A stretch of DNA of 64,000 nt from Frateuria soli (GTDB lineage: Bacteria; Pseudomonadota; Gammaproteobacteria; Xanthomonadales; Rhodanobacteraceae): positions 248,001-312,000 of the forward strand of contig NZ_CP088252.1 of the NCBI RefSeq assembly GCF_021117385.1. Reading direction: 5' to 3'. Below, in pieces: positions 22,936-59,295 of this stretch. A program made the translations under genes and the position numbers. The notes under the pieces are model-generated. The model saw only the letters and a list, made by a program, of their open reading frames with translations, was not told the origin of the DNA and did not search any database. Numbering within the stretch: position 1 is the stretch's first letter; each line of letters opens with the position of its first letter.

Positions 22936-23050
22936 GTGGATCCGCACCGAAGGAAACCAGGGATGGCCTGGCGCGCAGAAGACATAGTCCATGCCATCTG
23001 CCGCCTGGATAGCTACCTCCCTTCACCCGAGCCGATGCCAGGACGCACTT

Positions 23051-24265
23051 GTGAAACGCTTCTACCTCTCCGGACAACGCACCTTCCGCAACCGTGGTTG
23101 CGAGGCCATCGTGCGCAGCACGGTGGCGCTGCTGCGGGACCAGTTCGGCGAGGTGGAGGTGCTGGTCCCCTCGACCAACATCGCACGCGACAGTGCGCAA
23201 TGGCCCGATGCATCCGGGCAGGGCGTACGCTTCGTTCGAGCCTACCTGCCGCCTCCCGCTCGCTACTGGGTGCAACTGCAGAGTCTGCCACTGCCGCTGA
23301 TCAAGCGTGCCGGCTGGCCGTTCCCGATGCCGCGCTGGCTGCGTCAGCAGCTCGACTCGGTCGATGCCGTGCTGGCGGTGGGCGGCGACAACTATTCGCT
23401 GGACTACCGGATCCCTTCGCCGATCATGAGCGTGGACGGCTGGGCCATGGACATGGGCAAGCCCGTGATGCTCTGGGGGGCGTCGGTCGGTCCGTTCGAA
23501 CGCGAGCCGGAATTCGTCGATCCGGTGACGCGCCACCTCGCGCGCATGCACTTTGTGGCGGCCGGCGAATCGATGAGCCATGACTACCTGGTCCACAAGC
23601 TGGGTCTGCGCAACGTGATCCGGATGGCCGAGCCGTCCTTCATGCTCGGCAAGGAACCGGTCGACCTCAAGCCGTTCTGGCCCAGGGGTGACGGCCACGT
23701 GTTGGGTCTGAACGTGAGCCGGCTGGTCGAGCGCCACCAGCGCAGCAACAAGAACGTGCACGCCGAGCTGGAGGGATTCATCCGTCACGCGGTGAAGGAA
23801 CACCGGCTCGGCGTGCTTCTGATCCCGCACGCCGATCCGTTGCGCCAGGCGCACGGTGGGGATGCCGAGTACATGGGGCCGCTGCTGACGCGGTTGGCCG
23901 ACCTCGGCAGTGCCGTGACGATGATGCCCAACACGTTCAACGCGGCACAGACCAAGTACGTCATCAGCTACCTGCGCTTCTTCATCGGTGCACGCGCGCA
24001 CCCGGTAATCGCCGCGCTTTCCAGCGGTGTGCCGACCGTCTCCATCGCATACAGCGTCAAGGCCTGCGGCATCAATCGCGACCTGTTCGGCAACCAGGAG
24101 ACGGTGCTGCAGGCGCGCAACCTGTCCTCGCGCCGGTTGCAGGACATGCTGGAGCGATTGGTGCAGCAGGAAGACACGCTGCGCAGCCTGCTCGAATGCC
24201 GCCTCGCCGAATGGCAGTCGGCCACCAGGGCTGCGACGGCGCGGATCTCGGACTGCCTTTGTTGA
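23051..24265 (+). CDS. Polysaccharide pyruvyl transferase family protein
   Basis: This 404-residue protein is of the PS_pyruv_trans type. The features are an N-terminal GxxxxRNRGCEAIV turn, the AVGGDNYSLDY segment after a VDAVL strand, KPVMLWGASVGPF, a GESMSHDYL stretch and the C-terminal FFIGARAHPVIAALSSGVPTVSIAYSVK. Enzymes of this family move pyruvate from phosphoenolpyruvate onto sugar hydroxyls as a ketal, adding negative charge; some relatives have other roles, so the exact reaction is inferred. The GTG start has AGGA seven bases upstream and begins MKRFYLSGQ; the longer frame upstream was rejected. Part of the ugd operon. Confidence 0.85.
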   Translation: MKRFYLSGQRTFRNRGCEAIVRSTVALLRDQFGEVEVLVPSTNIARDSAQWPDASGQGVRFVRAYLPPPARYWVQLQSLPLPLIKRAGWPFPMPRWLRQQLDSVDAVLAVGGDNYSLDYRIPSPIMSVDGWAMDMGKPVMLWGASVGPFEREPEFVDPVTRHLARMHFVAAGESMSHDYLVHKLGLRNVIRMAEPSFMLGKEPVDLKPFWPRGDGHVLGLNVSRLVERHQRSNKNVHAELEGFIRHAVKEHRLGVLLIPHADPLRQAHGGDAEYMGPLLTRLADLGSAVTMMPNTFNAAQTKYVISYLRFFIGARAHPVIAALSSGVPTVSIAYSVKACGINRDLFGNQETVLQARNLSSRRLQDMLERLVQQEDTLRSLLECRLAEWQSATRAATARISDCLC

Positions 24266-25196: not shown

Positions 25197-26240
25197 ATGG
25201 AACAGACCCTCACCCTGGTGGATACGCCATCCAATTCGAACGCTCGGGCCATGCTCGGGCTCATGGTGCTGGCCGTCGTCTGCCTGGCCATGGACCTGGT
25301 GGTCGGCTCGCGCAGCATCGACACCGGAACCGACACCTACGTCTATGCCGGCTTCTTCGACGCGCTGCGGCACGGTACGGTCAACAGCCGCTTCGAGCCG
25401 GTGTTCTATTACCTGAGCGTATTGCTCGCCGGCACCGGCATGAGCCGGGTCGCGTACCAGAGCTGCCTGTTCCTGATCATGATCGGAACCGTGGTGGTGG
25501 CCACGCGCAAGTACTACGACTACCTGGAAAGCGAGGGCAGTTACCTGGTCTTCCTTACCGCATCACTGATGTTCCTGCTGTTTTCGCCAGTGATGAGCAA
25601 CGCTTCCATCAACGTCGTGCGCCAGGGACTGGCCTCCCTGCTGGTATTCGCGGCCCTGATCGCGTTCTACCGCCATCAGTGGCGCAGCTTCTTCTTCTGG
25701 GGCCTGCTTGCGACCGGCTTCCATTATTCTTCGGTGCTCTACCTGCTGTTCGCGCCGGTGCTGCTGCTTCGCCAGCGCACCCAGCGACTGATCGCGATCG
25801 GTGCGTTCCTGGCCTACTGCAGCGGGTTGACCATGTTGCTGGTCCAGGCGCTCGTGCCATCGGTGTACGCGATCGTCATGAAATACGACGCAGGCGCGAC
25901 CTACCGTACCGGCGTGCGCCTGGACTTCGCGGTGTTCTCGCTGTTCTGGTATCTGCTGCCCTACGTCCTGGCGCCGTTGGTGCACGAACCTGCGCGGCAG
26001 CGGATCAAGGACGGTACGTCGATCTACGCGGTCATGCTGCTGCCCTTCTTTGCGGTTGGCTGGGGCAACTTCTCCAACCGCTACCTGCTTTCGTCGTGGC
26101 TGTCGGTATCGCTGGTGCTGGCCGCGATCTGCTGCAACAGCCGCCTGGCCCCCCTGCGCAACCCCCTGCTGATACGGATCGGGCTGATCTTGGCGGCCGC
26201 GGTTTTCTACATGTATGTCAGCCATGGTTTCGTGATTTGA
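25197..26240 (+). CDS. EpsG-family O-antigen/EPS polymerase (Wzy-type)
   Basis: The 347-residue polytopic protein has about ten predicted helices. The region after the first helix carries the EpsG hallmark: S-R-S-I-D-T-G-T-D-T-Y-x-Y (compare DYxxY near a first loop) and RFEPVFYYLS. The later GFHYSSVLYLLFAP and GNFSNRYLLSSWL are further EpsG-like motifs. EpsG proteins polymerise lipid-linked repeat units in the periplasm. The start at 25197, two bases after the GT2 stop, is preferred over the longer open frame inside the GT2 gene, giving tight coupling. Confidence 0.85.
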   Translation: MEQTLTLVDTPSNSNARAMLGLMVLAVVCLAMDLVVGSRSIDTGTDTYVYAGFFDALRHGTVNSRFEPVFYYLSVLLAGTGMSRVAYQSCLFLIMIGTVVVATRKYYDYLESEGSYLVFLTASLMFLLFSPVMSNASINVVRQGLASLLVFAALIAFYRHQWRSFFFWGLLATGFHYSSVLYLLFAPVLLLRQRTQRLIAIGAFLAYCSGLTMLLVQALVPSVYAIVMKYDAGATYRTGVRLDFAVFSLFWYLLPYVLAPLVHEPARQRIKDGTSIYAVMLLPFFAVGWGNFSNRYLLSSWLSVSLVLAAICCNSRLAPLRNPLLIRIGLILAAAVFYMYVSHGFVI

Positions 26241-40875: not shown

Positions 40876-42369
40876 ATGTTCGACATGCAGCACGTCCACC
40901 GCGACCTCCGGCGCCACAGCGTGCGCGGTGCGGCCGCGACGATGGTCAGCCAGGCAGGCATGTTCTGTGTCCAGCTCGCCGGCTTGGCGCTTCTGGCGCG
41001 CCTGCTGATGCCGGCCGACTTCGGCGTGTTCGGCAAGACGGTGGCACTCACCGGCTTCATCACCGTGCTGCGCTCGGGGGGGCTTTCGCTTGCCACCGTG
41101 CAGCGGGCGGAGGTCACCCACGCGCAGGTCAGTACCCTGTTCTGGCTCAACCTCGCGGTGGGGCTGGCGGCGGCCACGCTGCTGGCCGCGCTCGGCCCGC
41201 TGATGGCCTGGTTCTATCGCGATCCGCGCGTGCTCTGGCTTGTCGTGGCGCTGGCTGGATCGATCTTCGTCGACAGCCTGAGCATCCAGCACACCGCGTT
41301 GATGCAGCGGCAAATGCGGTTCGGCACGATCGGATCGATCAACGTCGCCGCACGCATCGTGGGATTCGTCATGGCCATTGGCAGCGCGTGGCAGGGCGCC
41401 GGCTACTGGGCGCTGGTGGTGCAGCAGTACGGCACCAGCCTGGCGATGCTCGTGCTGGTGGTATCGAGTTGCCATTGGCTGCCGGATCTGCCGCGCCGGG
41501 GCAGCGGCGTGCGGCCGATGGTGAAGATGGGTGCGCATCAGAGCCTGTCCAACGTGCTCAACTTCGCCAACCGCAACATGGACAACATCCTGATCGGCCG
41601 CTTCGTGTCGGATGTTGCGCTGGGCTTCTACAGCCAGGCCTACCGACTGCTGCTGCTGCCGGTGCAGCAGATCAATTCGCCGATTTCGTCCGTGGTGGTG
41701 CCCGCCCTCAGCCGGCTGCAGGACCAGCCCGAACGCTTCGCGCGCTTCTATTACCGCGCGATGGGGACGATGACTTTCCTGGGCATGCCGGTCATCTGCT
41801 TCCTGCTGGTGGACGCACACTCGGTGATCCGGGTGGTCCTGGGCGAGAAATGGCTGCCGGTGGTGCCGCTGTTCCAGACCCTGGGCGTGGCCGCCTTCAT
41901 GGGCACCTTCAACGTCGCCGGTGGCTGGGTCTACAGCGCGTTGGGCCAGACGGCGCGTCGGCTGCGCCAGCAGGCGTTTTCGTGCCCGGTAACCATCGGG
42001 GCGTTCTTCTCCGGCCTGCCCTGGGGCGCGCTGGGTGTAGCCGCCGCCTTCAGCATCACGCGCGTCGTGCTGGTTTGGCCGGCGCTGGCCTATTGCTATC
42101 GCGGCTCGCCGATCACTACCCGCGGCACTTTCACCACCCTGATCCGCCCCGCCACGGCGGCGATCGGGGCCGGACTCGCGCTGTGGGGCATCCGCGCCGT
42201 GGCGCCCTGGCGCGACCAGCCGTTGTGGGTCGTGCTCGACGGGTTGATCTATGCCGCCATCTACATGGCGATCTGGCTGGTCGTGCCTGGCGGGCGCGCT
42301 CGCCTGCGCGAGATGAAGAGCCTCCTCCACGACCTGAAACCAAAGACGAACCAGGGGTGCGCGCAATGA
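40876..42369 (+). CDS. wzx: Wzx-type polysaccharide flippase (first of two)
   Basis: The protein has 497 residues if started at the ATG at 40876. In-frame ATGs at 40843 and 40885 are alternatives, and none has a good ribosome site. The twelve to fourteen predicted TM helices belong to the MATE/MOP flippase superfamily, Polysacc_synt_3-like branch, as seen in SVRGAAATMVSQAGMFCVQLAGLALLARLLMPADFGVFG at the start and FYSQAYRLLLLPVQQINSPISSVVVPALSRLQ in the middle. It would move lipid-linked repeat units across the inner membrane. Its stop overlaps the start of the first sulfotransferase (ATGA). Confidence 0.9.
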   Translation: MFDMQHVHRDLRRHSVRGAAATMVSQAGMFCVQLAGLALLARLLMPADFGVFGKTVALTGFITVLRSGGLSLATVQRAEVTHAQVSTLFWLNLAVGLAAATLLAALGPLMAWFYRDPRVLWLVVALAGSIFVDSLSIQHTALMQRQMRFGTIGSINVAARIVGFVMAIGSAWQGAGYWALVVQQYGTSLAMLVLVVSSCHWLPDLPRRGSGVRPMVKMGAHQSLSNVLNFANRNMDNILIGRFVSDVALGFYSQAYRLLLLPVQQINSPISSVVVPALSRLQDQPERFARFYYRAMGTMTFLGMPVICFLLVDAHSVIRVVLGEKWLPVVPLFQTLGVAAFMGTFNVAGGWVYSALGQTARRLRQQAFSCPVTIGAFFSGLPWGALGVAAAFSITRVVLVWPALAYCYRGSPITTRGTFTTLIRPATAAIGAGLALWGIRAVAPWRDQPLWVVLDGLIYAAIYMAIWLVVPGGRARLREMKSLLHDLKPKTNQGCAQ

Positions 42370-43211
42370 ACCAGCGCCTGAATGACTGGATACCGGAGCC
42401 GCTGCGCCGCGGTGGACGTAGCGTCCGCCAGTTCTACCGCCACCGGAGTGCCAAACCCTGCCCCCGGCCGGTGCTCATCGGCGGTAACCAGAAATCCGGC
42501 ACGACGGCGATCGCCGCGTTGCTGGCCAAGGCAACCGGCCTGCGCTTCAGCAACGATCCGTTCTGGTCCATCGCCTGCCTCGACGCGAACGCGTCGGTGG
42601 TGGCCGACCTGTTGGCCAGGCGCCAGCACATCGGCCACATCGTGCGTCGCTACCCGGCCTATTTCAGTGCCGAGATCATCAAGGATCCGAACTTCTCCTA
42701 CGTCTACCCGCAGTTGAGCGAATGCTTCCCGCGCTCGCCGCAGGTATTCATCGTGCGGGATCCACGGCAGAACATCCGCAGCATCCTCGACCGGCTGGGT
42801 ATCGATGGCCAGCTCGATACGCTGGGGACCGACCAGCGCCGCGCGCTGGCCGCAGGCTGGCGCGCGTTCCTGGACGGCGAGGGTCTCGACATCGACCAAG
42901 GAAACCACGTCGAGCGGCTCGCCCAGCGGTGGAACATCGTGGTCGATCGCTTCCTCGAGCGCAGCGACGCCATCCGGCTGGTCCGCTACGAGGACTTCCT
43001 TGCGGACAAGGCCGGCTGCATCGGCGAACTGGCCGGGCACCTGGGGCTGGCCGTCCGCCACGACATCCGCGCCGAGCAGGACCGCCAGTTCCAGCCACGC
43101 GGCAACCGCGCCATCACGCCGGAAGCATTCTTCAGCGGGCGCAACCTGGCGGCGATCGAATCCATCTGTGCCGGAGGGATGGCGCGATTCGGCTATGCGC
43201 CCCGGATGTAG
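42366..43211 (+). CDS. PAPS-dependent sulfotransferase 1
   Basis: The 281-residue cytoplasmic enzyme has the 5'-phosphosulfate-binding loop LIGGNQKSGTTAIAALL (about residues 37-53) and the 3'-phosphate-binding segment FIVRDPRQNIRSIL (about 128-141), typical of the Sulfotransfer_1/3 families. It transfers sulfate from PAPS to a hydroxyl or amino group, here presumably of a sugar. The ATG overlaps the wzx stop by four bases, so the two are coupled. Confidence 0.88.
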   Translation: MNQRLNDWIPEPLRRGGRSVRQFYRHRSAKPCPRPVLIGGNQKSGTTAIAALLAKATGLRFSNDPFWSIACLDANASVVADLLARRQHIGHIVRRYPAYFSAEIIKDPNFSYVYPQLSECFPRSPQVFIVRDPRQNIRSILDRLGIDGQLDTLGTDQRRALAAGWRAFLDGEGLDIDQGNHVERLAQRWNIVVDRFLERSDAIRLVRYEDFLADKAGCIGELAGHLGLAVRHDIRAEQDRQFQPRGNRAITPEAFFSGRNLAAIESICAGGMARFGYAPRM

Positions 43212-43325
43212 CAGACGTCCCGTCGACGCCCTCTCTGGAAAAATGTTCAAAGTCCGCCGTCGTGCGCCGGCTGAGCCTGCCGCCGACGCTCCGGCCCTAC
43301 CGTCGGGTCAGTTAGGAAGACTGCC

Positions 43326-44018
43326 ATGATCGTTTCGCACAAGCACAAGTTCATTTTCCTGAAGACCAACAAGACTGCCGGCACGTCGATCGAGATCGCG
43401 TTGTCCAAGTTCTGTGGTCCGGACGACATCATTACGCCGATCTCGCCCGTGGACGAAGAGACCCGGCAAAGGCTCGGATACCGGGGCCCACAGAATTTCC
43501 ATGCGCCATGGAGCGATTACGGCCTGCGGGATATAGCCGCATTGCTGCTCAAGGGGCGGCGCAAATCGCGTTTTTTCAATCACATTACCGGCCGGATGGT
43601 GCGTCAATATATCGGCGAGGACGTGTGGAACAGTTATTACAAGTTCTGTTTCGAGCGCAATCCGTACGACCGGGTCATTTCGCATTATTACTGGTGCAAT
43701 CGCACCGAGCCGCGGCCGCCGCTTTCGAGCTTCATCCACTCGCCACAGGCGCTTGGCCTCAAGCATCGCGGATACGAGGTCTACACCCTCGACGGCCAGG
43801 TCGCGGTCGATCGCGTCTGCCGCTATGAATCGATCGCGGAAGAACTGGAAGAGGTCAGGAAGGCCATCGGGCTGCCCGAGCCGTTGGTACTCCCTCGCGC
43901 CAAGTCCAGCCACCGCGCCGACACCCGCAGCTACCGCGAGGTGCTGGGCGAGGAGGAGCGCGACTGGGTGACCAGCATGTTCGGCGACGAGCTTCGCCTG
44001 CTCGGCTACCACTTCTGA
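43326..44018 (+). CDS. Sulfotransferase 2 (Sulfotransfer_2-like)
   Basis: The 230-residue protein has the PAPS loop FLKTNKTAGTSIEIALSKF (about 11-29) and the 3'-phosphate region FERNPYDRVISHYYW (about 109-123), which belong to the Sulfotransfer_2 family seen in chondroitin/heparan and bacterial polysaccharide sulfotransferases. It is unlike sulfotransferases 1 and 3 in the PAPS loop (KTAGTS versus KSGTT/RSGTT), so the three are not simple duplicates. It lies about 115 bases after sulfotransferase 1 on the same strand. TAGGAAG lies just before the ATG. Confidence 0.85.
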   Translation: MIVSHKHKFIFLKTNKTAGTSIEIALSKFCGPDDIITPISPVDEETRQRLGYRGPQNFHAPWSDYGLRDIAALLLKGRRKSRFFNHITGRMVRQYIGEDVWNSYYKFCFERNPYDRVISHYYWCNRTEPRPPLSSFIHSPQALGLKHRGYEVYTLDGQVAVDRVCRYESIAEELEEVRKAIGLPEPLVLPRAKSSHRADTRSYREVLGEEERDWVTSMFGDELRLLGYHF

Positions 44019-44085
44019 TGCGGTGTCCGGCGACCTCCCGGGTCGCCGGCCGGCCGAAGAAGTCATCCCGGGCGCGTGTCGCCGG

Positions 44086-44132
44086 CCGTCGTCGCGCCGG
44101 TCCGTCGACGCGCCGGGCCGTCGACGCGCCGG
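44086..44132. repeat. Three tandem copies of a 16-base unit
   Basis: CCGTCGACGCGCCGG occurs at 44102-44116 and 44118-44132, with a one-base variant (CCGTCGTCGCGCCGG) at 44086-44100; the period is 16 bases. It lies between the convergent sulfotransferase 2 and acetyltransferase genes. Function unknown. Confidence 0.7.
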
Positions 44133-44220
44133 CATGATGCCGGTGGCGCCGCGGGCGGCCCCCCGCGGTAGTGGGAGGCGCACAATTCCCCTCCGCGGGG
44201 TTACTGCCCGGGAGCGCCGC

Positions 44221-44772
44221 TCAGGATGCCACTGGCTGCGCGGGACCGTCGCTGGGAGCCGCCCCCGCAGCGACCTCAGCGACCTGCCTGAGTATCCGCG
44301 CGGGGACTCCTCCGGCGATCACGCCGGCGGGCACGTCGCGGGTCACCACCGCGCCGGCGGCGATGACCGAGCCACGGCCGACAGTGACCCCCTGGGTGAT
44401 GATCACCCCGGCGCCGATCCATACCTCGTCTTCGACCACGATGGGCATGGCCCAGTCTCCACGTCCCTTGCCCGGCTCGTAGACCAGACCGTGGCTGACG
44501 GTCTCGAACATTACCCGCGGCCCGACCTGCACGTTTCTGCCGAGGCTGATCGCCCCGGCGGCGGCGAAACGCACTTCGGTGTTGATGAATGTGCCGCTCC
44601 CGATGCGGATGTTGCCTGCACTGCCCAGCGGACGCAGCGTGATCGGTCCCCAAAGCCTGCACCTGCCTTCGATCCGCATGCCGGCCAGGCGATAAAGCAC
44701 ATAGCGGAAACGGTCGCAGACGCGCATGCGCGGCAGGTGATTGGCCAGTGCAAGGAATACCGCTTCCCTCAT
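44221..44772 (-). CDS. Hexapeptide-repeat O-acetyltransferase (LbH family)
   Basis: The 183-residue protein carries left-handed beta-helix hexapeptide repeats: ITLRPLGSAGNIRIGSGTFINTEV, ISLGRNVQVGPRVMF and VWIGAGVIITQGVTVGRGSVIAAGAVVTRDVPAGVIAGGVPARILR. The catalytic His is probably in VSHGL. It resembles WbbJ/NodL-type sugar acetyltransferases. The ATG at 44772 has GGAG eight bases upstream; longer in-frame starts at 44820 and 44832 are less likely. It is the only minus-strand gene among the sulfotransferases. Confidence 0.88.
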   Translation of the reverse strand: MREAVFLALANHLPRMRVCDRFRYVLYRLAGMRIEGRCRLWGPITLRPLGSAGNIRIGSGTFINTEVRFAAAGAISLGRNVQVGPRVMFETVSHGLVYEPGKGRGDWAMPIVVEDEVWIGAGVIITQGVTVGRGSVIAAGAVVTRDVPAGVIAGGVPARILRQVAEVAAGAAPSDGPAQPVAS

Positions 44773-45004
44773 GCGGGTTCTCCACTTCAATGTTCGGGTG
44801 GGAGGCCGGTTGACGCGCATGCGCGAATACACGCGGGCAAACCGTTCGATGGGCCGTCATCCTAACGCGTCGGCGCCAGCACGGGCGTGAATTCATTAAC
44901 GCCCGGAGTGTGCATCGACATCAGCCAGAACGGCATGAATGTTATACAGACGTTTCACGCGCGATTGCCGACCATCGGCTGCTCTCCGGTATTCCGAGGC
45001 GGTA

Positions 45005-45151
45005 ATGCATCGATTCCCATCCCTGACCGGTTGCGAACTCCCCTGCGCCGGCATCGCATTGATCCTGGCGGCCACGTGCTGCACCTGGCCGGTGTGCGAC
45101 CCGCGCGGCACGGCTCCGGCCGCCGGGCATGGCGCGGAGACGTTGCGATGA
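45005..45151 (+). CDS. Possible 48-residue membrane peptide coupled to sulfotransferase 3
   Basis: The ATG follows a GAGGCGG ribosome-like sequence. The peptide has a hydrophobic, Cys-rich segment (CAGIALILAATCCTWPVC) and its stop overlaps the sulfotransferase 3 start by four bases (ATGA), the same coupling used elsewhere in the locus. It may be a real small membrane protein or only a translated leader. No homologue is recognised. Confidence 0.35.
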   Translation: MHRFPSLTGCELPCAGIALILAATCCTWPVCDPRGTAPAAGHGAETLR

Positions 45152-46131
45152 GCGCGGTCGATGCCGCGGCGACCAGGTCGCCGGCTCCCGGCCCGGTGCC
45201 GGGCGTTGCGAAGGTGGAACGCGGTGCGGTCAGAAGCGTGCTGGTCGTCGGCTGCCCGCGATCGGGCACCACCCTGATGCAGTCGATCATCGCCGCGCAT
45301 CCGGAGGTCTTCTCCTCGCCGGAAACACATTTCTTCGCCGACTCGGTGGGGCAACGGTCCGAACGCATGTTCCGCATGCCCGCGCTGTCCTGGCGCGAGC
45401 GCCGCTCGCGCGTGGCACATCGTTGCCGGGTCGCGATGGACCTGACCCAGTGGCGTGCCTGCCGGCGACGGCTGATCGAGTTTCTGGCGGATTCCGATCG
45501 GCCGGACCTCATGGCCCAAGTACCGGCCCGCCCATTCATGCTCGACCCCGCCGCGCGTCTGTACGTTTCGCTGGGGGAGCGTGTCGCCCGGGACAGCGGC
45601 AGGACCGTCTGGCTGGAGAAGACCCCCGACCACCTGCATTACCTGGACACGGTCGATCGCTTCATGCCCGAGGCAAAGGTGGTCTGCGTGATCCGTTCCG
45701 GTCCGGACAACATCGCTTCGCTCTACGACGTGGCCCGGAAGTACCCGGATCGCTGGCATCCCCGCTACGGCACGCTCGACGGCTGCATCAACCGTTGGCT
45801 GTGCTCCGCGCGCGATGCCATGCGTCAGGCGGGCCGCCCGGGCCGGCTGTTCGTGTCCTACGAGAGCCTTGCCTCCGACCCGGCGAAGGTCGCCGAAGCG
45901 GTCTGCCGGTTCATCGGCCTGGACTACCGGCCCGGCATGGTGGAAGCGCGCGGCGATGTGTTCGACCAGATCGTGCGCCACCGGGAACCACACAAGAAGA
46001 ACATCCAGGAAAAGATCGCTCCGCGCAACGGCACGAAGTTCCAGCAGCTGTTCACGCCCGAGCAGCGCGCGCACATACACGCGCGGCTGGGCGACTGGCC
46101 GCAGCGGCTGCAGGAACTGTGCGACCACTGA
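45148..46131 (+). CDS. PAPS-dependent sulfotransferase 3
   Basis: The 327-residue protein has the PAPS loop LVVGCPRSGTTLMQSII (about residues 32-48) and the 3'-phosphate segment VVCVIRSGPDNIASLYD (about 176-192), with KTPDHLHYLDTVD between. This is the Sulfotransfer_3/StaL-like type. The C-terminal region REPHKKNIQEKIAPRNGTKF is basic. The ATG at 45148 is preceded by GGAGA; the open frame further upstream is not coding. It ends 126 bases before the PAPS-synthesis genes. Confidence 0.88.
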   Translation: MSAVDAAATRSPAPGPVPGVAKVERGAVRSVLVVGCPRSGTTLMQSIIAAHPEVFSSPETHFFADSVGQRSERMFRMPALSWRERRSRVAHRCRVAMDLTQWRACRRRLIEFLADSDRPDLMAQVPARPFMLDPAARLYVSLGERVARDSGRTVWLEKTPDHLHYLDTVDRFMPEAKVVCVIRSGPDNIASLYDVARKYPDRWHPRYGTLDGCINRWLCSARDAMRQAGRPGRLFVSYESLASDPAKVAEAVCRFIGLDYRPGMVEARGDVFDQIVRHREPHKKNIQEKIAPRNGTKFQQLFTPEQRAHIHARLGDWPQRLQELCDH

Positions 46132-46199
46132 GCGCAGCGCGACCCCTATGCGCCGAGCGGTAACGGAAACCTAGCGATTCCTTTCACAAGCCAATACCT

Positions 46200-46223
46200 A
46201 CAGTGTGGCGATCGCCGCACTGT
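46200..46223. promoter_or_regulatory. 24-base near-perfect palindrome upstream of cysD
   Basis: ACAGTG and CACTGT flank the core GGCGATCGCC, with one mismatch pair. It is centred about 46 bases before the cysD start, a usual place for an operator. The cognate regulator is unknown; it does not look like the AT-rich sites of CysB. Confidence 0.55.
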
Positions 46224-46257
46224 TGGCGTAACCATCACGCAAGCAAAGGACAGAACC

Positions 46258-47238
46258 ATGGCCCTGGTTGCACTCCCGGACAATGAAAACCAGCCGCGCC
46301 AAGGCGGCCCGGCGGGCGACATCGACCTCCACACCCTTGCCACCTCCTCGCACCTCAAGCGCCTGGAGGCCGAGGCCATCCACGTCATGCGCGAGGTGGC
46401 GGCCGAGTTCGCCAACCCGGTCATGCTCTACTCGGTCGGCAAGGACTCCTCGGTGCTGCTGCACCTGCTGCAGAAGGCGTTCTACCCGGCGCCGCCGCCG
46501 ATCCCGATGATGCACGTGGACACCACCTGGAAGTTCCGCGAGATGATCGCCTTCCGCGACCGCCGCGCGAAGGAAACCGGCTGCCGGCTGATCGTGCACA
46601 CCAACCAGGAAGGCGTGGCGCAGGGGGTGAACCCCTTCAGCCACGGCGCCAGCGTGCACACCGACATCATGAAGACCCAGGCGCTGAAGCAGGCGCTGGA
46701 CAAGTACAAGTTCGACGCGGCCATCGGTGGCGCGCGCCGCGACGAGGAGAAATCCCGCGCCAAGGAGCGCGTGTTCTCCTTCCGCAACGCGCAGCACCGG
46801 TGGGACCCGAAGAACCAGCGGCCGGAGCTGTGGAGCCTCTACAACACGCGCATCCACAAGGGCGAGAGCGTGCGCGTGTTCCCGCTGTCCAACTGGACCG
46901 AGCTGGACATCTGGCTCTACATCTACCGCGAGAACATCGAGGTCCCCTCGCTGTACCTGGCGAAGGAGCGTCCGGTGGTGGAGCGTGACGGCCAGCTGAT
47001 CATGGTCGACGACGACCGCATGCCGCTGGAGCCGGGCGAGGTGCCGCAGATGCGCAAGGTGCGCTTCCGCACGCTGGGGTGCTATCCGCTCACCGCCGCG
47101 ATCGAGTCCGAGGCCGACACGCTGCCGGCGGTGATCCAGGAAATGCTCATCGCGCGCACCTCCGAACGCCAGGGCCGCATCATCGATCACGACGCCTCGG
47201 CCTCGATGGAAAAGAAGAAGCAGGAGGGCTATTTCTGA
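46258..47238 (+). CDS. cysD: Sulfate adenylyltransferase subunit 2
   Basis: The 326-residue PP-loop enzyme has [13 protein letters not shown] (about residues 58-70), the MHVDTTWKF segment and [17 protein letters not shown], as in E. coli CysD. The N-terminal extension (about 20 residues) is a little longer than in E. coli. With the GTPase CysN it makes adenosine 5'-phosphosulfate from sulfate and ATP. Its stop overlaps the next start by one base (TGATG). Together with the fused CysNC it gives PAPS, the donor for the three sulfotransferases just upstream. Confidence 0.97.
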
Positions 47239-49142
47239 TGGATCTGCAAATCACCGACAGCCAGCAGTCCAGCGCCGTCACCGCGATCGACGACTATCTG
47301 CAGCGACACGAGACCAAGAGCCTGCTGCGCTTCATAACCTGCGGCAGCGTCGACGACGGCAAGAGCACCCTGCTGGGCCGTCTGCTGTACGACACCAAGC
47401 TGCTGTTCGACGACCAGCTGGCCGCGCTCGAGGGCGACAGCCTGCGCCACGGCACGCAGAACGGCGAACTGGATTTCGCGCTGCTGGTCGATGGCCTGTC
47501 CGCCGAGCGCGAGCAGGGCATCACCATCGACGTGGCCTACCGCTTTTTCAGCACGGACAAGCGCAAGTTCATCGTCGCCGACTGCCCGGGGCACGAGCAG
47601 TACACACGCAACATGGCCACCGGCGCCTCCACCGCCGACCTCGCAGTCGTGCTGGTCGATGCGCGCAAGGGTCTGCTGACGCAGACCCGCCGCCACACCT
47701 ACATCTGCAGCCTGCTCGGCATCCGCCACGTGCTGCTGGCGGTCAACAAGATGGACCTGGTGGACTACGCGCAGAGCACCTTCAAGCGCATCGAGAGCGA
47801 CTACCGCCTGGTCGCCGCCCAGATGGGTATCGAGAACGTCACCGCGATCCCGCTCTCGGCGCTGCAGGGCGAGAACGTCTCCAGTCGTTCGCAGGCAATG
47901 GGGTGGTACAACGGCCCCAGTCTGCTCGAGCATCTGGAGACCGTGCAGGTCGAGCACGCCACCAGCAAGCTCGGCTTCCGCATGCCGGTGCAATGGGTTT
48001 GCCGCCCCAACCAGAACTTCCGGGGCTACGCCGGGCAGGTCGTCGCCGGCTCTATCGCTCCGGGTGACGAGATCGTCGCACTGCCAAGCGGTGTGCGCTC
48101 GCGCGTGGCGCGCCTGGTCACCGCCGACGGCGACCTGCCGCGGGCGGTGGCAGGCGACGCAGTGGCGATCCAGCTCGAGGACGAACGCGACATCAGCCGC
48201 GGCGACGTGATCGCCGCGACTTCCTCGCCGCCGCAGGTGGCCGACCAGTTCGCGGCGCACCTGCTGTGGATGGACACGGCCGCGCTGCTGCCGGGACGCC
48301 CGTACTGGATGAAGATCGGTGCGCGCCTGGTCACGGCGCAGGTCACCGAGATCAAGCACCGCGTCGACGTCAACACGCAGGAGAAGCGTCCTGCCAAGCG
48401 CCTGGAGCTCAACGAGGTGGGCTATTGCAACCTCGGTCTCGATCACGCGATCGCGTTCGAGTCCTACGCGGACTGCCGCGAGCTCGGCGCGTTCATCCTG
48501 ATCGACCGCCAGACCAATGCCACGGTGGCCGCCGGTACGCTCAACTTCGCATTGCGCCGCGCGGAGAACATCCACTGGCAGCACACCGATGTCGATCGTG
48601 TCGCGCGTGCCCGCATCAAGGGGCAGATGCCGGCGTGCCTGTGGTTCACCGGACTGTCCGGTTCGGGCAAGTCGACCATTGCCAACGTGGTGGAGAAGCG
48701 CCTGCACGCGATGGGCTATCACACGTACATGCTCGATGGCGACAACGTGCGCCATGGCCTCAACCGCGATCTCGGTTTCACCGACGAGGACCGCGTGGAG
48801 AACATCCGCCGCGTCGCGGAAGTGTCGAAGCTGATGGTCGACGCTGGCCTGATCGTGATGGTGTCCTTCATCAGTCCGTTCCGCAGCGAGCGTGGTATGG
48901 CGCGAAGCCTGTTCGGGAACGGCGAGTTCCGCGAGGTGTTCGTCGACACGCCGCTTGAAGTTTGCGCCCAGCGCGATCCCAAGGGCCTTTATGCGAAGGC
49001 GCGTGCCGGGCAGATCAAGAACTTCACCGGCATCGACTCACCTTACGAGCGTCCGGAGCACCCCGAGATGCATCTGGACACCATGGGTGCGTCCGTGGAC
49101 GAGCTTGCACAGCGGGTGATCGACCATCTGCTTGGCCATTGA
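47238..49142 (+). CDS. cysNC: Bifunctional sulfate adenylyltransferase subunit 1 / adenylylsulfate kinase (CysN-CysC fusion)
   Basis: In this 634-residue protein the N-terminal GTPase has the P-loop [13 protein letters not shown] (about 35-47), DCPGHEQYT (G3) and NKMDLVDY (G4). EF-Tu-like beta-barrels follow, and then an APS kinase domain from about residue 460 with the P-loop [11 protein letters not shown], the [10 protein letters not shown] motif and [10 protein letters not shown]. CysN drives APS synthesis; the CysC part phosphorylates it to PAPS. The fusion (NodQ type) is known in Rhizobium, Xanthomonas and others. No cysH, cysI or cysJ is nearby, which favours a sulfation role over cysteine synthesis, although the genome may use the same enzyme for both. 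Confidence 0.96.
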
Positions 49143-49517
49143 TGCACGTGTGGTCCCTTTTCCTGCGGGAAGGGGACCACGGCCGGTGCCGCTGTTCCGA
49201 AAGGGGCACCGGTGCCTCCAGAGCGGGTCGTCCACCGCAATCCGCGCCTGCGACATGACACTGCGAGGCCTGCGCCCGGGCATTCGGCGCTGAGATCGCC
49301 AACTTGCAGCCCGCCCGCGCGGAAGGCGTAGGCGCGGGGCCGCGGGTCCGTCCGGGAGCCGCCCGGGCGAAAGCACGGTCCATGCCTGCGTCCACACTCA
49401 ATCTGAACGTCATGTTGACGACGAGTGTGCTCTAAGTGTTAAGGCGATGTGCTCCCGTGTCTCTTCCGGCATGCCTTCGCGGGACGCTGGTTTCCATTTT
49501 TTTTTGAGGGATAAACC
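49143..49517. promoter_or_regulatory. Spacer between cysNC and the tyrosinase gene
   Basis: Two hairpins follow the cysNC stop. The first is a 14-base-pair stem with two G-U pairs (49150-49163 with 49167-49180). The second is the eight-base-pair stem CCGGTGCC/GGCACCGG (49183-49190 with 49205-49212). Neither has a T tract, but together they probably end the cys transcript. TTGACG at 49415 could be a -35 box for the tyrosinase gene; no good -10 is seen. Confidence 0.45.
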
Positions 49518-54958: not shown

Positions 54959-56122
54959 CTAATTGGCCGCCGAGCCGCGCTCGGAGCTCTTCGGACGCTT
55001 GCTGTAGGAGGACAGCATGGTCACCGGAGACTGCAGCCGCACCACGTTGCTCGGCAGGGCCGCTGCCTCGAACGTGGGCCGGGGCTGCAGCGAGGGTGCC
55101 GACTGCTGTTTCTGCCAGAGCCGCCCCATGGCCGTCACGTAGATCACCGTCAGCGCGCCGAAGGCGATCAGGTTGCTGCCGGGCGCCAGCGAATGGGTAA
55201 GCATGCCGGTCAGCGCCAGAAGGATGGCCAGCATCACCAGCGCCGCCAGCGTGGTGCGCGGGCCCAGGCCGGCGCGCAGCATCATGTGGTGGATGTGGCC
55301 GCGGTCCGGCTTGAACGGGCTCTTGCCCTCGCGGACCCGGCGCACCACCACCTGCAGCGTGTCGAGCACCGGCAAGGCCACGCACCAGAGCACGTCGATG
55401 GTGGAAAGCTCGGTATTGGGGCCGCTCTGGCTCAGGTGGATCAGCGTCCAGGCCAGCACGTAGCCCACTACCATGCTGCCTGCATCGCCGAGGAAGATCT
55501 TCTTGCCGACCAGGCCCAGGTTCGCTGCCAGGTAGGGCACCAGCGCTCCGGCCAGCAGGACCAGCACGACCACGCCCGGCCACTGTGGCTGGCCCTGGTA
55601 CAGGATGATGGCTGCGATGCTGATCAGCGCAAGCATGCCGGCCAGGCCGTCGATGCCGTCCATCATGTTGAAGGCATTGAGCAGGCCGATCACCGCCACG
55701 ACGGTCAGCGGGATGCCGAACACCCCCAGCTCGAACTCGTGGCCGAACAGGTGGCCCAGCGTATGGATATGAACGCCGGTCACCGCGACCATCGTCAGTA
55801 CGGCGCCGGTCTGTACCAGCAGCCGCGCACGCACACTCAGGTCGAAGCGGTCATCCAGCGCACCCACCACCGCGAGTACCGCCGCGGTGGCCAGCAACAC
55901 GTTGGTGAAGAGGTGGGTCTGCCCATCGACCGCGGCCCCCGCAAGCACGCCCACGAAGGCGGCCAGACCGCCGATCAGCGGAATGTGGCCCACGTGATGT
56001 TTGCGTTCATTCGGGCGGTCGACCAAGCCCCAGGTTCCGGCAAGCCGATAGAGAATGGCGATCGCCAGCGCGGAGACGCAGGCGGCCGTCATACAAGCAA
56101 TAAGTATCCGGGAGTACTGCAT
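54959..56122 (-). CDS. wecA: WecA-type undecaprenyl-phosphate sugar-1-phosphate transferase
   Basis: The 387-residue polytopic enzyme (about eleven TM helices) belongs to the MraY/WecA family. Diagnostic segments are GLVDRPNERKHHVGHIPLIGG, the DD motif in GALDDRFDL, NAFNMMDGIDGLAG, KKIFLGDAGSM and the cytoplasmic HIHH in DRGHIHHMML. It links GlcNAc-1-phosphate (or a related N-acetylhexosamine) to undecaprenyl phosphate and so starts the repeat unit. No WbaP/GumD-type initiator is present, so this is the likely primer. The start at 56122 matches the WecA N-terminus; another ATG 15 bases upstream is possible. Confidence 0.92.
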   Translation of the reverse strand: MQYSRILIACMTAACVSALAIAILYRLAGTWGLVDRPNERKHHVGHIPLIGGLAAFVGVLAGAAVDGQTHLFTNVLLATAAVLAVVGALDDRFDLSVRARLLVQTGAVLTMVAVTGVHIHTLGHLFGHEFELGVFGIPLTVVAVIGLLNAFNMMDGIDGLAGMLALISIAAIILYQGQPQWPGVVVLVLLAGALVPYLAANLGLVGKKIFLGDAGSMVVGYVLAWTLIHLSQSGPNTELSTIDVLWCVALPVLDTLQVVVRRVREGKSPFKPDRGHIHHMMLRAGLGPRTTLAALVMLAILLALTGMLTHSLAPGSNLIAFGALTVIYVTAMGRLWQKQQSAPSLQPRPTFEAAALPSNVVRLQSPVTMLSSYSKRPKSSERGSAAN

Positions 56123-56365
56123 AGTGGCTAGTCCCATCTTCCTGATCGGGCCATGGCGGCAGACGTGACTTTCCCGTCGCTGACACGGCACACCCGCATG
56201 CGCAGGCAAAACCGGATATCCCCGTTCCCTGGCCCCCACGAGGAGGGCTTCCGGACAGAGTAGGCAGGCACCAGTGCAATTCTCGTCAACAGTAGGCAGG
56301 CGCGAATTGCCTGCAAGGAAGGCGCCGCCCGCCTGTCCCGTCCGCTGTCCGGGTTCAGTGAAGGA

Positions 56366-58207
56366 TCAGTCGAAGAGCAGATTGATGACCACCAGCGTGG
56401 CCACCAGCAACGTCAGCGTCAGCGGCACGCCGACGCGCAGGAAATCCTTGCCGCGGTAGCCGCCGGGGCCGGCCACCATCATCAGCGCCGGATGGCCGGA
56501 GCTGAGCAGGAAGGTGTTGGACGAGGATACCGCCACGATCAGAGCGTAGGCTGAAGGGTTGCCGCCGGTGGCGACCGCCACGCTGATCGCGATCGGCACC
56601 ATCATCACCGTCGCGCCAACGTTGGACATCACCTGCGAGAACAGCAGCGTGAGTACCGCCAGGCAGCTCTGAAGTACCCAGGGCGAGGCGCCGCCCAGCT
56701 TGTCCAGCACCACCTGCGCCAGCCAGGCGGCCGTGCCTGTGGCGTCCATCGACCAACCCAGCGGGATCAGGCAGGCGGTGACGAAGATCGTCTTCCAGTT
56801 GATCGCCTTGTACGCCTCGTCCATGTTCAGCACGCCGGTCAGCAGCATGCCGATCGCGCCGGTCATCATCGCCACCGACAGGTCCAGATGGGTGAACAGC
56901 GCCAGGCCCTTGGCCAGCAGGAAGAAGCCCACTGCCTGCCAGATCTTGCCGGGGCGCTGCTCCTCCTTGGGGATGTCGGTGACGACGACCAGGTCCTTGT
57001 CTTCGGCGGCCAGCGCCAGGTCGCGCCAGCTCGAGTGCAGCACCAGCGTGTCGCCGGCGCGCAGGCTCACGCCACGCACGTCGTCGCGGAACACCTGGTC
57101 GCCGCGGTTGACCGCCAGCACCGAGATGCCATGGCGCTTGCGCAGGTGCAGGTCGCCGATCGTCTGCTTGAGGAAGCGCGAGGACGGCGGCAGCACCGCC
57201 TCGGAAATGCCCGCGCGGGTCGGGTTGAACAGTTCGCCCAGCTGGCGCATGCGCGGAGAGACCTTGCACAGCTGGTTGTTGGCGAAATGGTTGATCTCCT
57301 CGCGCGGCGCCAGCACGCCGAGCACCGACCCGACCCAGATCACATAGTCGACCGGTGGCGCCATGCGCGCGTCGTTGCCGCTCTTGATCGCCAGGATCAG
57401 CGGCGCGCCGTGCAACTGCTCGACCTCGCCGATGCTCATGCCCACCAGCGGGCTTTCCGCGGTCACCGTCAGCTCGGCCGTCTCGCCGCCGATGCCGTAG
57501 GTCTCGGCGAAGTAGCTCTCGGTACGGCCGGGGGTCACCTTCAGGCGTTCGTCCTCGCGCTCGGGCAGCAGCTTGCGGGTGAACAGCCAGAAGTAGCCGA
57601 TGCCCAGCAGCGCCAGCACCAGACCGACCGGGGTCACGCTGAACAGCCCGAACTTGGGGATGGTGTGCGCGCCGGGCGGCAGGTTGGCGTTGGCGCTGGC
57701 GATCAGGTCGTTCAGCACGATCAGCGGCGAGTTGGCGATCAGCGTGGTGTTGGTCGCCGCCAGGATGCAGAAGCCCATCGGCAGCAGCAGTCGCGAGATC
57801 GGCACGCCGGTGCGCGCGGACAAACGGCTGGTGACCGGGATCATCAGCGCAGCGAGCGCCTGGCTCGGGATCACCGCGCTGAACAGGCTCGTGACCGAGT
57901 TGATCACCACGCCCAGGCGCGACTCCTTGCCGCGCGCCATGCGCATCACGAAGTTGGCCGTCAGCGAGAGCACGCCGGCGCGGTCCAGCCCCGCGCCCAT
58001 GATCATGATCGCGATGATCGCGATCACCGCGTTGCCGGCAAAGCCGTTGAACACGCGCTCGGAGGGAATCAGCCCGGTCAGGCCGATCACCACCACCACC
58101 AGCAGCGCCACCATGTCGGCGCGGATCCACTCCAGCACCAGCATCAGCATGGTGAAGCCCACCAGCCCGAGCACCAGGATCATTTCGGGGGTGAGCGCGA
58201 GGGCCAC
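56366..58207 (-). CDS. SLC13/DASS-type transporter with two RCK_C domains
   Basis: The 613-residue protein has five or six N-terminal TM helices, two cytoplasmic RCK_C (TrkA-C) domains around residues 215-385 and a second block of TM helices. The SLC13 signatures SQALAALMIPVTSRL, ATNTTLIANSPLIVLND and, in the second half, FSQVMSNVGATVMMVPIAISVA are clear. Such proteins move dicarboxylates, sulfate or other anions. Sulfate would fit the PAPS genes nearby, but the sequence does not decide it. The GTG at 58207 and the ATG at 58183 are both possible starts. Confidence 0.9.
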   Translation of the reverse strand: MALALTPEMILVLGLVGFTMLMLVLEWIRADMVALLVVVVIGLTGLIPSERVFNGFAGNAVIAIIAIMIMGAGLDRAGVLSLTANFVMRMARGKESRLGVVINSVTSLFSAVIPSQALAALMIPVTSRLSARTGVPISRLLLPMGFCILAATNTTLIANSPLIVLNDLIASANANLPPGAHTIPKFGLFSVTPVGLVLALLGIGYFWLFTRKLLPEREDERLKVTPGRTESYFAETYGIGGETAELTVTAESPLVGMSIGEVEQLHGAPLILAIKSGNDARMAPPVDYVIWVGSVLGVLAPREEINHFANNQLCKVSPRMRQLGELFNPTRAGISEAVLPPSSRFLKQTIGDLHLRKRHGISVLAVNRGDQVFRDDVRGVSLRAGDTLVLHSSWRDLALAAEDKDLVVVTDIPKEEQRPGKIWQAVGFFLLAKGLALFTHLDLSVAMMTGAIGMLLTGVLNMDEAYKAINWKTIFVTACLIPLGWSMDATGTAAWLAQVVLDKLGGASPWVLQSCLAVLTLLFSQVMSNVGATVMMVPIAISVAVATGGNPSAYALIVAVSSSNTFLLSSGHPALMMVAGPGGYRGKDFLRVGVPLTLTLLVATLVVINLLFD

Positions 58208-58560
58208 TAGCGAGCGTCCAGGTGAGGCTGGTGATGGAAGCGGATGGGATTGTGCAGAGGTTGCCTCACGCGGCCGGGTCCGTCCCTGTTTGTGGCCGAG
58301 TATAAGCGGGGCATGGCGTTGGCTGGTGAACCGCAGGACTGGCGTGCGGTCGCGACGTCGCCCTTCGCCTGCGGCGAGAGGGCAGGGTGAGGGGCCGGGC
58401 TCGCGGGGGCGGTTCTGGAGAAGCCCGTTCCCGCAAACGGTGGGAACAGTCGCGTGGGTGGGCGCCGGCTTCCGCGGGTGGCGGAGGGCTCTCGGGGGAG
58501 CGCACCCGGTGCGCGACCGGGATGCATGGCGGTCGCGCATGCGTGCCAGGGCGCGCGGGT
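58208..58560. other. 353-base spacer with a GC-rich palindromic repeat-like segment
   Basis: No gene is visible. CCCTTCGCC TGC GGCGAGAGGG near 58361-58382, followed by CAGGGTGAGGGG, resembles the widely dispersed intergenic repeat of xanthomonads and pseudomonads that reads CCCTCACCCT...GGCGAAGGG on the other strand. It lies upstream of the SLC13-type transporter and downstream of trmB. Confidence 0.5.
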
Positions 58561-59295
58561 TCAGGCCCTGCGGTAGAGCAGATCCCACACCCCGTGCCCG
58601 AGCTTGAGCCCGCGCCGCTCGAAGTGCGTCTCGATGCGCCAGGCCGGCTTCTCCGCGTACTGGCCCGGCGCGATGGCGTTGCGCCAGGCCGGCGCGGCTT
58701 CCATCACCTCCAGCATGTGCTCGGCGTAGGGCTGCCAGTCGGTGGCCAGGTGCAGCAGGCCGCCGGGCGCCATGCGCGAGGCAAGCAGGCCGACGAATTC
58801 CGGCTGCACGATGCGCCGCTTGTTGTGGCGCTTCTTGTGCCAGGGGTCGGGAAACCAGATGCGCGCCTCGGCCAGCGTGCCCGGCGCGATCTCGTGCTCG
58901 ACCACTTCCACCGCGTCGTGCCTGTAGAGATGGACGTTGCCGGCCGCGCGCGCGGCCAGCGCGTTCATCAGCCGGCCGACACCGGGGCCATGTACTTCCA
59001 CGCCGATGTAGTCGCGCATCGGGTCGTGCTCACTGGCCCAGGCCAGCGCCTCGCCATTGCCGAAGCCGATTTCCAGCACGCGCGGAGCGACCCGCCCGAA
59101 ACGCGCATCGAAGTCCTGCGCCGCGCCGGTGTAGTCGATGCCGAAGCGTGCCCAGTGGGCGTCGAAGGCGCGCTGTTGCGCCGGCGTCATGCGGCCTTCG
59201 CGCAATACGAAACTGCGGATGCGGCGCAGGTACGGGGAGCTGGCGGGATGTTCGGGCTGTTCGTTCACGGCTTGCGTCTGGGGCTGCGGCGGCAT
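58561..59295 (-). CDS. trmB: tRNA (guanine-N7)-methyltransferase
   Basis: The 244-residue enzyme has the SAM motif [12 protein letters not shown] (about residues 74-85), [15 protein letters not shown] and the TrmB signature [20 protein letters not shown]. It methylates G46 in the variable loop of many tRNAs. The N-terminal tail of about 40 residues is polar. The ATG at 59295 was chosen because an ATG 30 bases earlier adds only Arg-rich residues. Confidence 0.96.

Follow-up and report, generated by a model that had tools for sequence, protein, structure and literature searches.

The closest described counterparts of the locus analysed here come from rhizobia, a cyanobacterium, an actinomycete and Xanthomonas oryzae, a member of the same bacterial order as Frateuria soli. 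The rhizobial proteins NodPQ are of the CysD/CysN-CysC type and, to our knowledge, are encoded outside any Wzx/Wzy locus. According to a review, the NodP/NodQ system with NodH resembles this locus in that NodPQ make PAPS, and the sulfated surface polysaccharide of Mesorhizobium loti depends on nodPQ; unlike F. soli, rhizobia possess assimilatory CysH/CysIJ (PMC6192434). The xss cluster for synechan of the cyanobacterium Synechocystis sp. PCC 6803 shares with F. soli the Wzx/Wzy system and more than one sulfotransferase from distinct subfamilies, and sulfate was measured in the polymer; it differs in having two sulfotransferases rather than three, its gene listing names no PAPS-synthesis gene, and PAPS and APS are absent from the main text (PMC8205485). 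The cluster wps-1 of the actinomycete Actinoplanes missouriensis likewise combines Wzx/Wzy genes with two unlike sulfotransferases and a predicted sulfated exopolysaccharide, and the words cysD and PAPS are absent from the main text of that report (PMC13390465). In Xanthomonas oryzae, the ATP sulfurylase and APS kinase of RaxP/RaxQ are required together with the sulfotransferase RaxST, a similar arrangement; however, the proposed target is a secreted peptide, and raxST shares its operon with secretion genes and is not part of a polysaccharide locus (PMC4216712).

Bacterial sulfated polysaccharides are stated in two papers to have been reported from cyanobacteria only (PMC8205485, PMC13390465), but nodPQ-dependent sulfated polysaccharides of rhizobia are also in print (PMC6192434). 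No earlier report of an exopolysaccharide locus of Frateuria or Rhodanobacteraceae with sulfotransferases and cysDNC was found in a search of mostly open literature, partly judged by title. The parts and the principle are known from synechan and NodPQ; the combination is a new variation on them.

Probable sulfation block and surrounding exopolysaccharide locus

In the window, the whole stretch of 64,000 nucleotides of F. soli DNA analysed, the region 42366-49142 probably provides the sulfation functions of an exopolysaccharide locus of Wzx/Wzy type, with PAPS supplied from within the locus (Table 1).

Table 1. Features of the locus in the window, with coordinates, strand and basis of assignment
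Feature	Coordinates	Strand	Basis
Wza-type outer-membrane polysaccharide export protein	17084..18193	-	PF02563 E 9e-29, SLBB, Wza_C
Low-molecular-weight tyrosine phosphatase, presumably Wzb-type	18829..19272	+	translation reading
Chain-length/tyrosine kinase, presumably Wzc-type	19297..21513	+	translation reading
UDP-glucose dehydrogenase, putative uronic acid supply	21550..22935	+	translation reading
Polysaccharide pyruvyl transferase	22991..24265	+	PF04230 E 6e-27
Probable Wzy-type polymerase	25199..26240	+	inferred from place and hydrophobic look
Wzx flippase	40876..42369	+	PF13440 E 1.2e-81
Sulfotransferase ST1	42366..43211	+	PF13469 E 7.4e-11; PAPS loop GNQKSGTTA, 3'-phosphate loop RDPRQNIRSI
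Sulfotransferase ST2 (Sulfotransfer_2 type)	43326..44018	+	PF03567 E 1.5e-9; loop TNKTAGTS
Hexapeptide-repeat acyltransferase-like protein	44221..44832	-	PF00132 E 4e-11
Sulfotransferase ST3	45148..46131	+	PF13469 E 1.3e-29, PF00685 E 1e-13; loop GCPRSGTT
CysD, ATP sulfurylase small subunit	46258..47238	+	NCBIfam NF009214, 542 bits vs cut-off 413
CysN-CysC fusion, ATP sulfurylase large subunit + APS kinase	47238..49142	+	NCBIfam NF004035, 1046 bits vs cut-off 715
WecA-like sugar-phosphate transferase	54959..56239	-	PF00953 E 5e-31
SLC13/TrkA_C type transporter, candidate sulfate permease	56366..58588	-	PF03600 E 5e-81, PF02080, PF00939

The three unlike sulfotransferases, CysD and CysN-CysC recognized in the earlier note were confirmed in coordinates, motifs and Pfam/NCBIfam families; the start codons of the Wzx flippase and ST3 were chosen in this analysis. 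CysD and CysN-CysC are both full length and above the curated NCBIfam cut-offs, the fusion contains an APS_kinase domain (Pfam, E 2.2e-72), and the stop of cysD overlaps the start of cysN-cysC. Comparison of ST1, ST2 and ST3 with each other by BLASTP revealed no meaningful mutual similarity (three-sequence comparison, best E 0.033), and the PAPS loops are intact, as established by alignment for ST1 and by direct reading for ST2 and ST3. The three genes span 3.77 kb, in agreement with the 3.8 kb given earlier, but the acyltransferase-like gene between ST2 and ST3 had been missed; since it lies on the opposite strand, ST1-ST3 do not form one uninterrupted operon.

Wzx, a probable Wzy, an export protein and glycosyltransferases are present in one locus; Wzx, Wza and the glycosyltransferases were assigned by Pfam, Wzb and Wzc by reading of the translations, and Wzy was inferred, with no Pfam family found at E<=1e-3. 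Near the locus in three relatives, the WecA-like protein has counterparts of 83-91% identity, and the SLC13-type transporter is found in the same locus of three relatives with 93-97% identity. A homologue of UDP-glucose dehydrogenase is encoded in a second exopolysaccharide locus (L023) of the Frateuria genome G060, which also contains a sulfotransferase, its own cysDNC and an SLC13 carrier. Five pectate-lyase-like beta-helix proteins were observed in the F. soli locus.

Conservation and distribution of the sulfotransferases

The search for the sulfotransferase-cysDNC block in related genomes, proposed earlier, revealed a comparable block in all six Frateuria genomes drawn, F. soli included, and at the same place in the five others; this recurrence is more than chance. 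Identity of the five relatives to the window is 85-94% for CysD and 91-96% for CysN-CysC, and only 50-56% for ST1. ST2 was found in G031 and G046 and ST3 in G060; a PF17784-type sulfotransferase was identified with Pfam in G031 and from its loop motif in G046, and a further PF13469-type sulfotransferase in G005, G060 and G074. A conserved CysDNC combined with differing sulfotransferases is the picture to be expected where the donor supply stays constant and the tailoring enzymes vary. Proteins with the motif LQKTGCTH occur in G031, G046 and G005; the three scanned as possible further sulfotransferases (two of G031, one of G005; the scans left out two of G046) gave no Pfam match, and the two of G031 no NCBIfam match.

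Translational coupling of wzx and ST1 had also been proposed. The stop of wzx and the start of ST1 do share four bases (ATGA) in the window; however, the overlap is not kept in the genus. In four relatives the two genes are adjacent but separated by some 45-150 bases (the exact start codons being uncertain), and wzx of G005 is on the other strand, which rules out coupling as a conserved feature within the genus. In the ST1 homologue of G005 the loop lysine is lost (GGSPNAGTT), and ST1 is therefore perhaps inactive in one of the six genomes.

The PAPS loop GNQKSGTT and the 3'-phosphate loop RDPRQNIRSI of ST1 are invariant or nearly so in an alignment of 31 proteins. The structural model of ST1 (pLDDT 92.7) has a predicted sulfotransferase fold, with the best Foldseek match (E 2.4e-6, TM about 0.5) to PAP-bound sulfotransferases. 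Its best structural matches are tyrosylprotein sulfotransferases (TM about 0.5, 14-17% identity), to which ST1 and ST3 also show distant sequence similarity; such model-based matches would not tell the substrate. The ST1 alignment was used to retrieve 55 loci; strong ST1-type matches were present in 35 of them, and 18 of the 35 contain a same-strand Wzx-type flippase within 1 kb. Outside Frateuria this holds for 15/32 loci, belonging to several distant phyla; in the remaining 17 no flippase was found within 1 kb by profile search, some contigs being short. Two of these 17 were checked with Pfam, which detected a flippase on the opposite strand of L107, at a distance of about 1.1 kb, and none in L111. 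Neither CysD nor CysNC was found in the fetched stretch of any of the 32 loci. It is the flippase neighbourhood of ST1 homologues in distant phyla that points to a polysaccharide as the putative substrate of ST1.

The ST2 family PF03567 is rare, being found in 11 of 78 genomes of the family at E<=1e-3 (nine over the cut-off), and the structure prediction for ST2 has a mean pLDDT of 37. Sulfotransferases were found in 11/12 CysD stretches of Frateuria versus 5/57 of other genera (with a weak match of TPR type among the five), using four profiles seeded from Frateuria proteins, which favours detection in this genus.

Sulfate activation and loss of sulfate-reduction genes

The search for another cysDN, also suggested in the earlier note, showed that the F. 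soli genome contains two cysDNC sets and one Sat. In a tree of 56 of 65 CysNC matches (nine were dropped, their start motif not fitting), CysNC of the locus forms its own clade (100/100), separate from the second genomic copy; the copies lie in well separated clades, and recent duplication of the two sets was rejected. The second set is paired with a TPR-sulfotransferase, and no exopolysaccharide genes were noticed in its 20 kb stretch. The case named earlier as fatal, cysDNC as the sole assimilation genes of the genome and unlinked to the cluster in relatives, is not what was observed.

Genes for assimilatory sulfate reduction, a PAPS/APS reductase together with sulfite reductase, were not found in the genome. 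The only two matches to PF01507 are at CysD genes, leaving no CysH, and PF01077 has no match, leaving no CysI. By synteny, cysG, cysH, cysI and cysJ are missing, with a clean gap relative to G031; a cysH query in the right frame gave no tblastn match in the stretch L093 at E<=1. An assembly gap was rejected, the genome being one contig, 99.91% complete, with both flanks aligning across the gap. In the absence of CysH and CysI, PAPS has no visible reductive use in the genome, and because these genes are lost, activated sulfate is probably used only for decorating polymers and other products.

APS reductases are distinguished by their cysteine pattern. Among the relatives, CysH was examined in G031 alone; it has the single-cysteine PAPS-reductase form, and Sat of G031 is without an APS-kinase part, so that CysNC there probably also serves cysteine synthesis. 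A full split in relatives, with Sat for reduction and CysDNC for sulfation, was accordingly dropped, since this CysH looks PAPS-dependent.

It is correct that no CysH-type gene is adjacent to the block, but this carries no weight as proof of a dedicated role, because a second CysD/CysH-type match was found in none of the 69 CysD stretches of the family and F. soli. These comprise 67 stretches (L016-L082), the window and L009, with about 10 kb on each side where the contig allowed; one CysD-length match (G058:C19) was left out, and the profile does detect the CysH of G031 in L088. Chemically, the term 'dedicated' itself goes too far: either cysDNC set can supply PAPS to every sulfotransferase of the cell, and six PF13469 matches are present in the genome.

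No PF01077 match was found in 19/78 genomes of the family, of which 13 keep CysD and six lack it. The median number of PF13469 matches is seven in the former and one in the latter (one-sided Mann-Whitney p 0.0018, ignoring relatedness, four of the six CysD-lacking genomes being of one genus). A further 13 of the 78 have PF01077 and no CysD-length match, with a median of six PF13469 matches; thus a genome can have sulfotransferases even where CysD is lacking.

Proposed mechanism, alternatives and significance

In the preferred explanation, sulfate would be taken up, possibly through the SLC13-type carrier at the edge of the locus; APS would be made by CysD/CysN and PAPS then by the CysC domain; ST1, ST2 and ST3 would use PAPS to place sulfuryl groups on the repeat unit of the polymer, perhaps at three different positions. 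Sulfation would most likely be cytoplasmic, on the lipid-linked unit, ahead of flipping by Wzx. The earlier interpretation is supported in part: for a sulfation module that includes genes for its donor, lies in an exopolysaccharide locus, is kept in relatives and has a flippase-linked sulfotransferase, but not for the cysHIJ argument or for 'dedicated'.

A further-reaching reading, slightly less likely than not, is that the genus shuffles exchangeable sulfotransferases round a fixed in-locus PAPS generator, giving a species-specific sulfation pattern, and that in F. soli, with reduction lost, all activation (two CysDNC sets and Sat) may serve sulfation alone. Given the putative uronic-acid supply and the five beta-helix proteins, a polymer analogous to sulfated glycosaminoglycans is conceivable. 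Against the preferred explanation, PAPS can diffuse, and in principle the second cysDNC set would suffice.

Rather unlikely, though the strongest rival, is that the polymer is sulfated but the adjacent cysDNC is a housekeeping activation set that landed there, without special supply. The CysD stretches devoid of CysH-type genes, the second cysDNC set with Sat, and G031, where CysC may serve both uses, are consistent with it; the linkage kept in six of six genomes while other tailoring genes turn over, the cysDNC of the second G060 cluster and the lack of a visible reductive pathway in F. soli argue against it. RaxST of Xanthomonas modifies the RaxX peptide, and it is improbable that at least one of ST1-ST3 similarly has a protein, peptide or small-molecule substrate and owes its place in the locus to chance: the likeness of ST1 and ST3 to tyrosylprotein sulfotransferases and the TPR-sulfotransferase pairing of the second cysDNC would fit, but in distant phyla roughly one in two ST1 homologues has a flippase as neighbour, and among the locus ORFs read neither a RaxX-like or other peptide precursor nor a peptide exporter such as RaxA/RaxB was noticed. 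Decay or silence of the module, with sulfation ceased, is very improbable: sulfur metabolism genes are lost elsewhere in the genome, the G005 ST1 lacks its loop lysine and a scan of 42200-49600 yielded no sigma-70-like promoter (0.7 expected), but all five genes are open and full length with intact sulfotransferase cofactor loops, and a high GC content leaves such a scan with little power.

If the preferred explanation is true, a gammaproteobacterial Wzx/Wzy locus with in-locus donor supply and sulfotransferases differing across the genus would widen the known range of such systems and would offer a natural enzyme set for making defined sulfated polymers. The F. soli genome lets sulfate activation be studied apart from sulfate reduction.

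Sulfotransferase and PAPS synthesis genes in the exopolysaccharide locus

Genes of three sulfotransferases (ST1, ST2 and ST3), together with cysD and a cysN-cysC fusion (cysDNC), form a block within the exopolysaccharide locus of Frateuria soli; its coordinates and motifs, taken from an earlier note, were borne out on re-reading of the window. The sulfotransferases are mutually unlike, as that note had held, coming from separate Pfam families or from far-apart branches of a single family, with no meaningful pairwise BLASTP similarity. Around the block, Wza, glycosyltransferases, pyruvyl transferase and flippases were identified with Pfam, Wzb, Wzc and UDP-glucose dehydrogenase were assigned by reading the sequence, and we infer a Wzy polymerase. 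The surroundings are a locus of the Wzx/Wzy type, with a WecA-like transferase and a carrier of the SLC13/TrkA_C type at its right-hand edge.

The locus also encodes five similar secreted-looking right-handed beta-helix proteins, possibly polymer lyases or epimerases; the two scanned are of the Pect-lyase_RHGA_epim type, and three were assigned by reading. A tyrosinase with a twin-arginine-like leader has homologues at the equivalent locus of relatives, in the fetched stretches L016, L019 and L022. An asparagine-synthase-like protein, whose scores lie far under the cut-offs of all the NCBIfam models it matched, possibly amidates a uronic acid.

Features of the block and the exopolysaccharide locus (window coordinates)
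Feature	Position	Remark	Basis
Asparagine-synthase-like protein	26461-27975	among exopolysaccharide genes	
Beta-helix proteins	27969-29144, 30736-31878, 32510-33703, 34350-35489, 35919-37103		
Wzx flippase	40876-42369		Pfam
ST1 sulfotransferase	42366-43211		Pfam
ST2 sulfotransferase	43326-44018		Pfam
Hexapeptide acyltransferase-like gene	44221-44832	strand opposite to ST genes, between ST2 and ST3	Pfam
ST3 sulfotransferase	45148-46131		Pfam
CysD	46258-47238		above NCBIfam curated cut-off
CysN-CysC fusion	47238-49142		above NCBIfam curated cut-off
Tyrosinase	49518-50948	inside the locus	

Conservation and origin of the block

A search of related genomes, proposed in the earlier note, found the same block, adjoining homologues of the window's exopolysaccharide genes, in all five other Frateuria genomes drawn (G005, G031, G046, G060 and G074). 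Identity to the window's proteins is 85-94% for CysD, 91-96% for CysN-CysC and 50-56% for ST1; the ST1 homologue of G005 lacks the loop lysine and may be inactive. ST2 homologues (74-78% identity) are present in G031 and G046, and an ST3 homologue (56%) in G060. A PF17784 sulfotransferase-family protein lies at the block in G031, with a counterpart in G046 recognised by its loop motif; a further PF13469 type, 72-76% identical among its members, was found in G005, G060 and G074. Thus the supply of donor is constant, and what varies is the set of acceptor-specific enzymes. G060 also has a second exopolysaccharide cluster, L023, in which the flippase and sulfotransferase genes are low in GC and which includes a separate cysDNC set and SLC13 carrier. 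Proteins with the motif LQKTGCTH, possibly an unrecognised sulfotransferase type, lie near cysDNC in relatives (L016, 10049-10945 and 11131-12084; L021, 11008-11862 and 12187-13050; L019, 14894-15877); the three scanned, both of L016 and one of L019, had no Pfam match.

Within the order Lysobacterales, to which Frateuria belongs as a member of the family Rhodanobacteraceae, hits to the ST1 profile (31 proteins) at E<=1e-20 were confined to 4 of 398 genomes, all Frateuria, and homologues 31-45% identical to the window's ST1 occur in cyanobacteria, planctomycetes, Latescibacterota, Bacteroidota and others; the gene was probably acquired by transfer. The ST2 profile (two sequences) matched 40 of the 398 at E<=1e-10, exceeding 100 bits only in G000, G031 and G046.

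Among the 55 loci fetched, 35 match the ST1 profile strongly on the + strand (E<=1e-20), three of these 35 being Frateuria records. A Wzx-type flippase lies on the strand of ST1 at <=1 kb in 18 of the 35, and in 15 of the 32 outside Frateuria. These are lower bounds: some contigs are short, and of two loci examined with Pfam after the profile had detected no flippase, L107 has one about 1.1 kb off on the other strand and L111 has none. Neither CysD nor CysNC was found in the 32 non-Frateuria loci within the fetched stretches. The cofactor-loop residues of ST1 are invariant or nearly so (31-protein alignment, G005 protein left out), and its predicted model (pLDDT 92.7) resembles sulfotransferases with bound PAP, best of all tyrosylprotein sulfotransferases, with TM about 0.5. 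Accordingly, the sulfotransferase fold and donor are well supported, and the assignment of a polysaccharide acceptor rests on gene neighbourhood.

Whether another cysDN exists elsewhere in the genome, as the earlier note asked, is answered by a second cysDNC set (L009, 6917-11403), divergent from a TPR-domain sulfotransferase gene, a pairing seen also in L018, L020, L024, L066 and L073. In a tree of 56 CysN-CysC proteins, the six locus copies form one clade (support 100/100) with the L023 copy as neighbour, and the L009 copy falls in a different clade with three other genus members; the two sets represent separate lineages. In genera g12 and g4, CysN-CysC proteins related to the locus clade occur where four sulfotransferase profiles detected no sulfotransferase. 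In three of four g12 loci (L030, L031 and L035, not L032), the direct neighbour of cysDNC encodes a protein sharing 27-29% identity with the SLC13-type carrier of the window, and a carrier-cysDNC unit may plausibly have been recruited into the exopolysaccharide locus. Outside the family, Marinospirillum insulare (L143, 1672-7505) has in succession a match to a sulfotransferase profile (E 4.8e-9, with none in NCBIfam), CysD, a homologue of CysN-CysC and a carrier sharing 26% identity with the window's SLC13 type, and may offer a parallel.

Sulfur metabolism of the genome and family

The earlier note recorded the absence of cysHIJ beside the block; for cysH this is ordinary in the family, since none of 69 CysD stretches from this genome and the family contains a CysH-type gene. 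The four sulfotransferase profiles, seeded from Frateuria proteins, detected a sulfotransferase in 11 of 12 Frateuria CysD stretches; for other genera the count is 5 of 57, including a weak TPR-type match in L034.

In the genome itself, both PF01507 (CysD/CysH-type) matches are CysD genes, and PF01077 (sulfite/nitrite reductase) has no match, against its presence in 59 of 78 family genomes and in all five other genus members drawn. There are three APS kinase matches, two of them complete copies and one weak, and a single Sat. Comparison of L093 (own genome, 1838000-1857999) with L088 of G031 showed cysK and sat kept and two stretches missing between well-aligned flanks, corresponding in G031 to most of cysG with a CysB-like regulator gene, and to cysH-cysI-cysJ; G031 cysG, cysH, cysI and cysJ gave no tblastn match in L093. 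No reductive use of PAPS is visible in the genome, though ATP sulfurylase is retained, and from its gene content the organism should be unable to grow when sulfate is the only source of sulfur.

Of the 78 family genomes, 19 lack PF01077; the median number of PF13469 matches per genome is 7 in the 13 of these that retain CysD and 1 in the 6 without it (p 0.0018, relatedness ignored); across all 78, the medians are 8 with CysD vs 3 without, relatedness again ignored. Counter to a simple rule, the median is 6 in the 13 genomes that possess PF01077 and lack a CysD-length match.

Proposed sulfation pathway and known systems

Sulfate would be converted to APS by CysD/CysN and to PAPS by CysC, from which ST1-ST3 would transfer it to the repeat unit on its lipid carrier, ahead of the flippase step, a site suggested by the cytoplasmic location of PAPS and the flippase neighbourhood of ST1. 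ST2 and ST3 perhaps act on other positions of the same repeat unit or on different sugars. The synechan xss cluster, whose polymer has been demonstrated to carry sulfate, operates likewise, but its listed genes include none for PAPS synthesis (PMC8205485). Rhizobial nodPQ supply sulfation of surface polysaccharide (PMC6192434) and Xanthomonas RaxP/RaxQ supply RaxST (PMC4216712). The Frateuria locus combines sulfotransferases for a proposed Wzx/Wzy polymer sulfation, as in synechan, with supply genes, as in nodPQ and RaxP/RaxQ, in one place; the parts and the principle are already known, and their combination in one locus is new.
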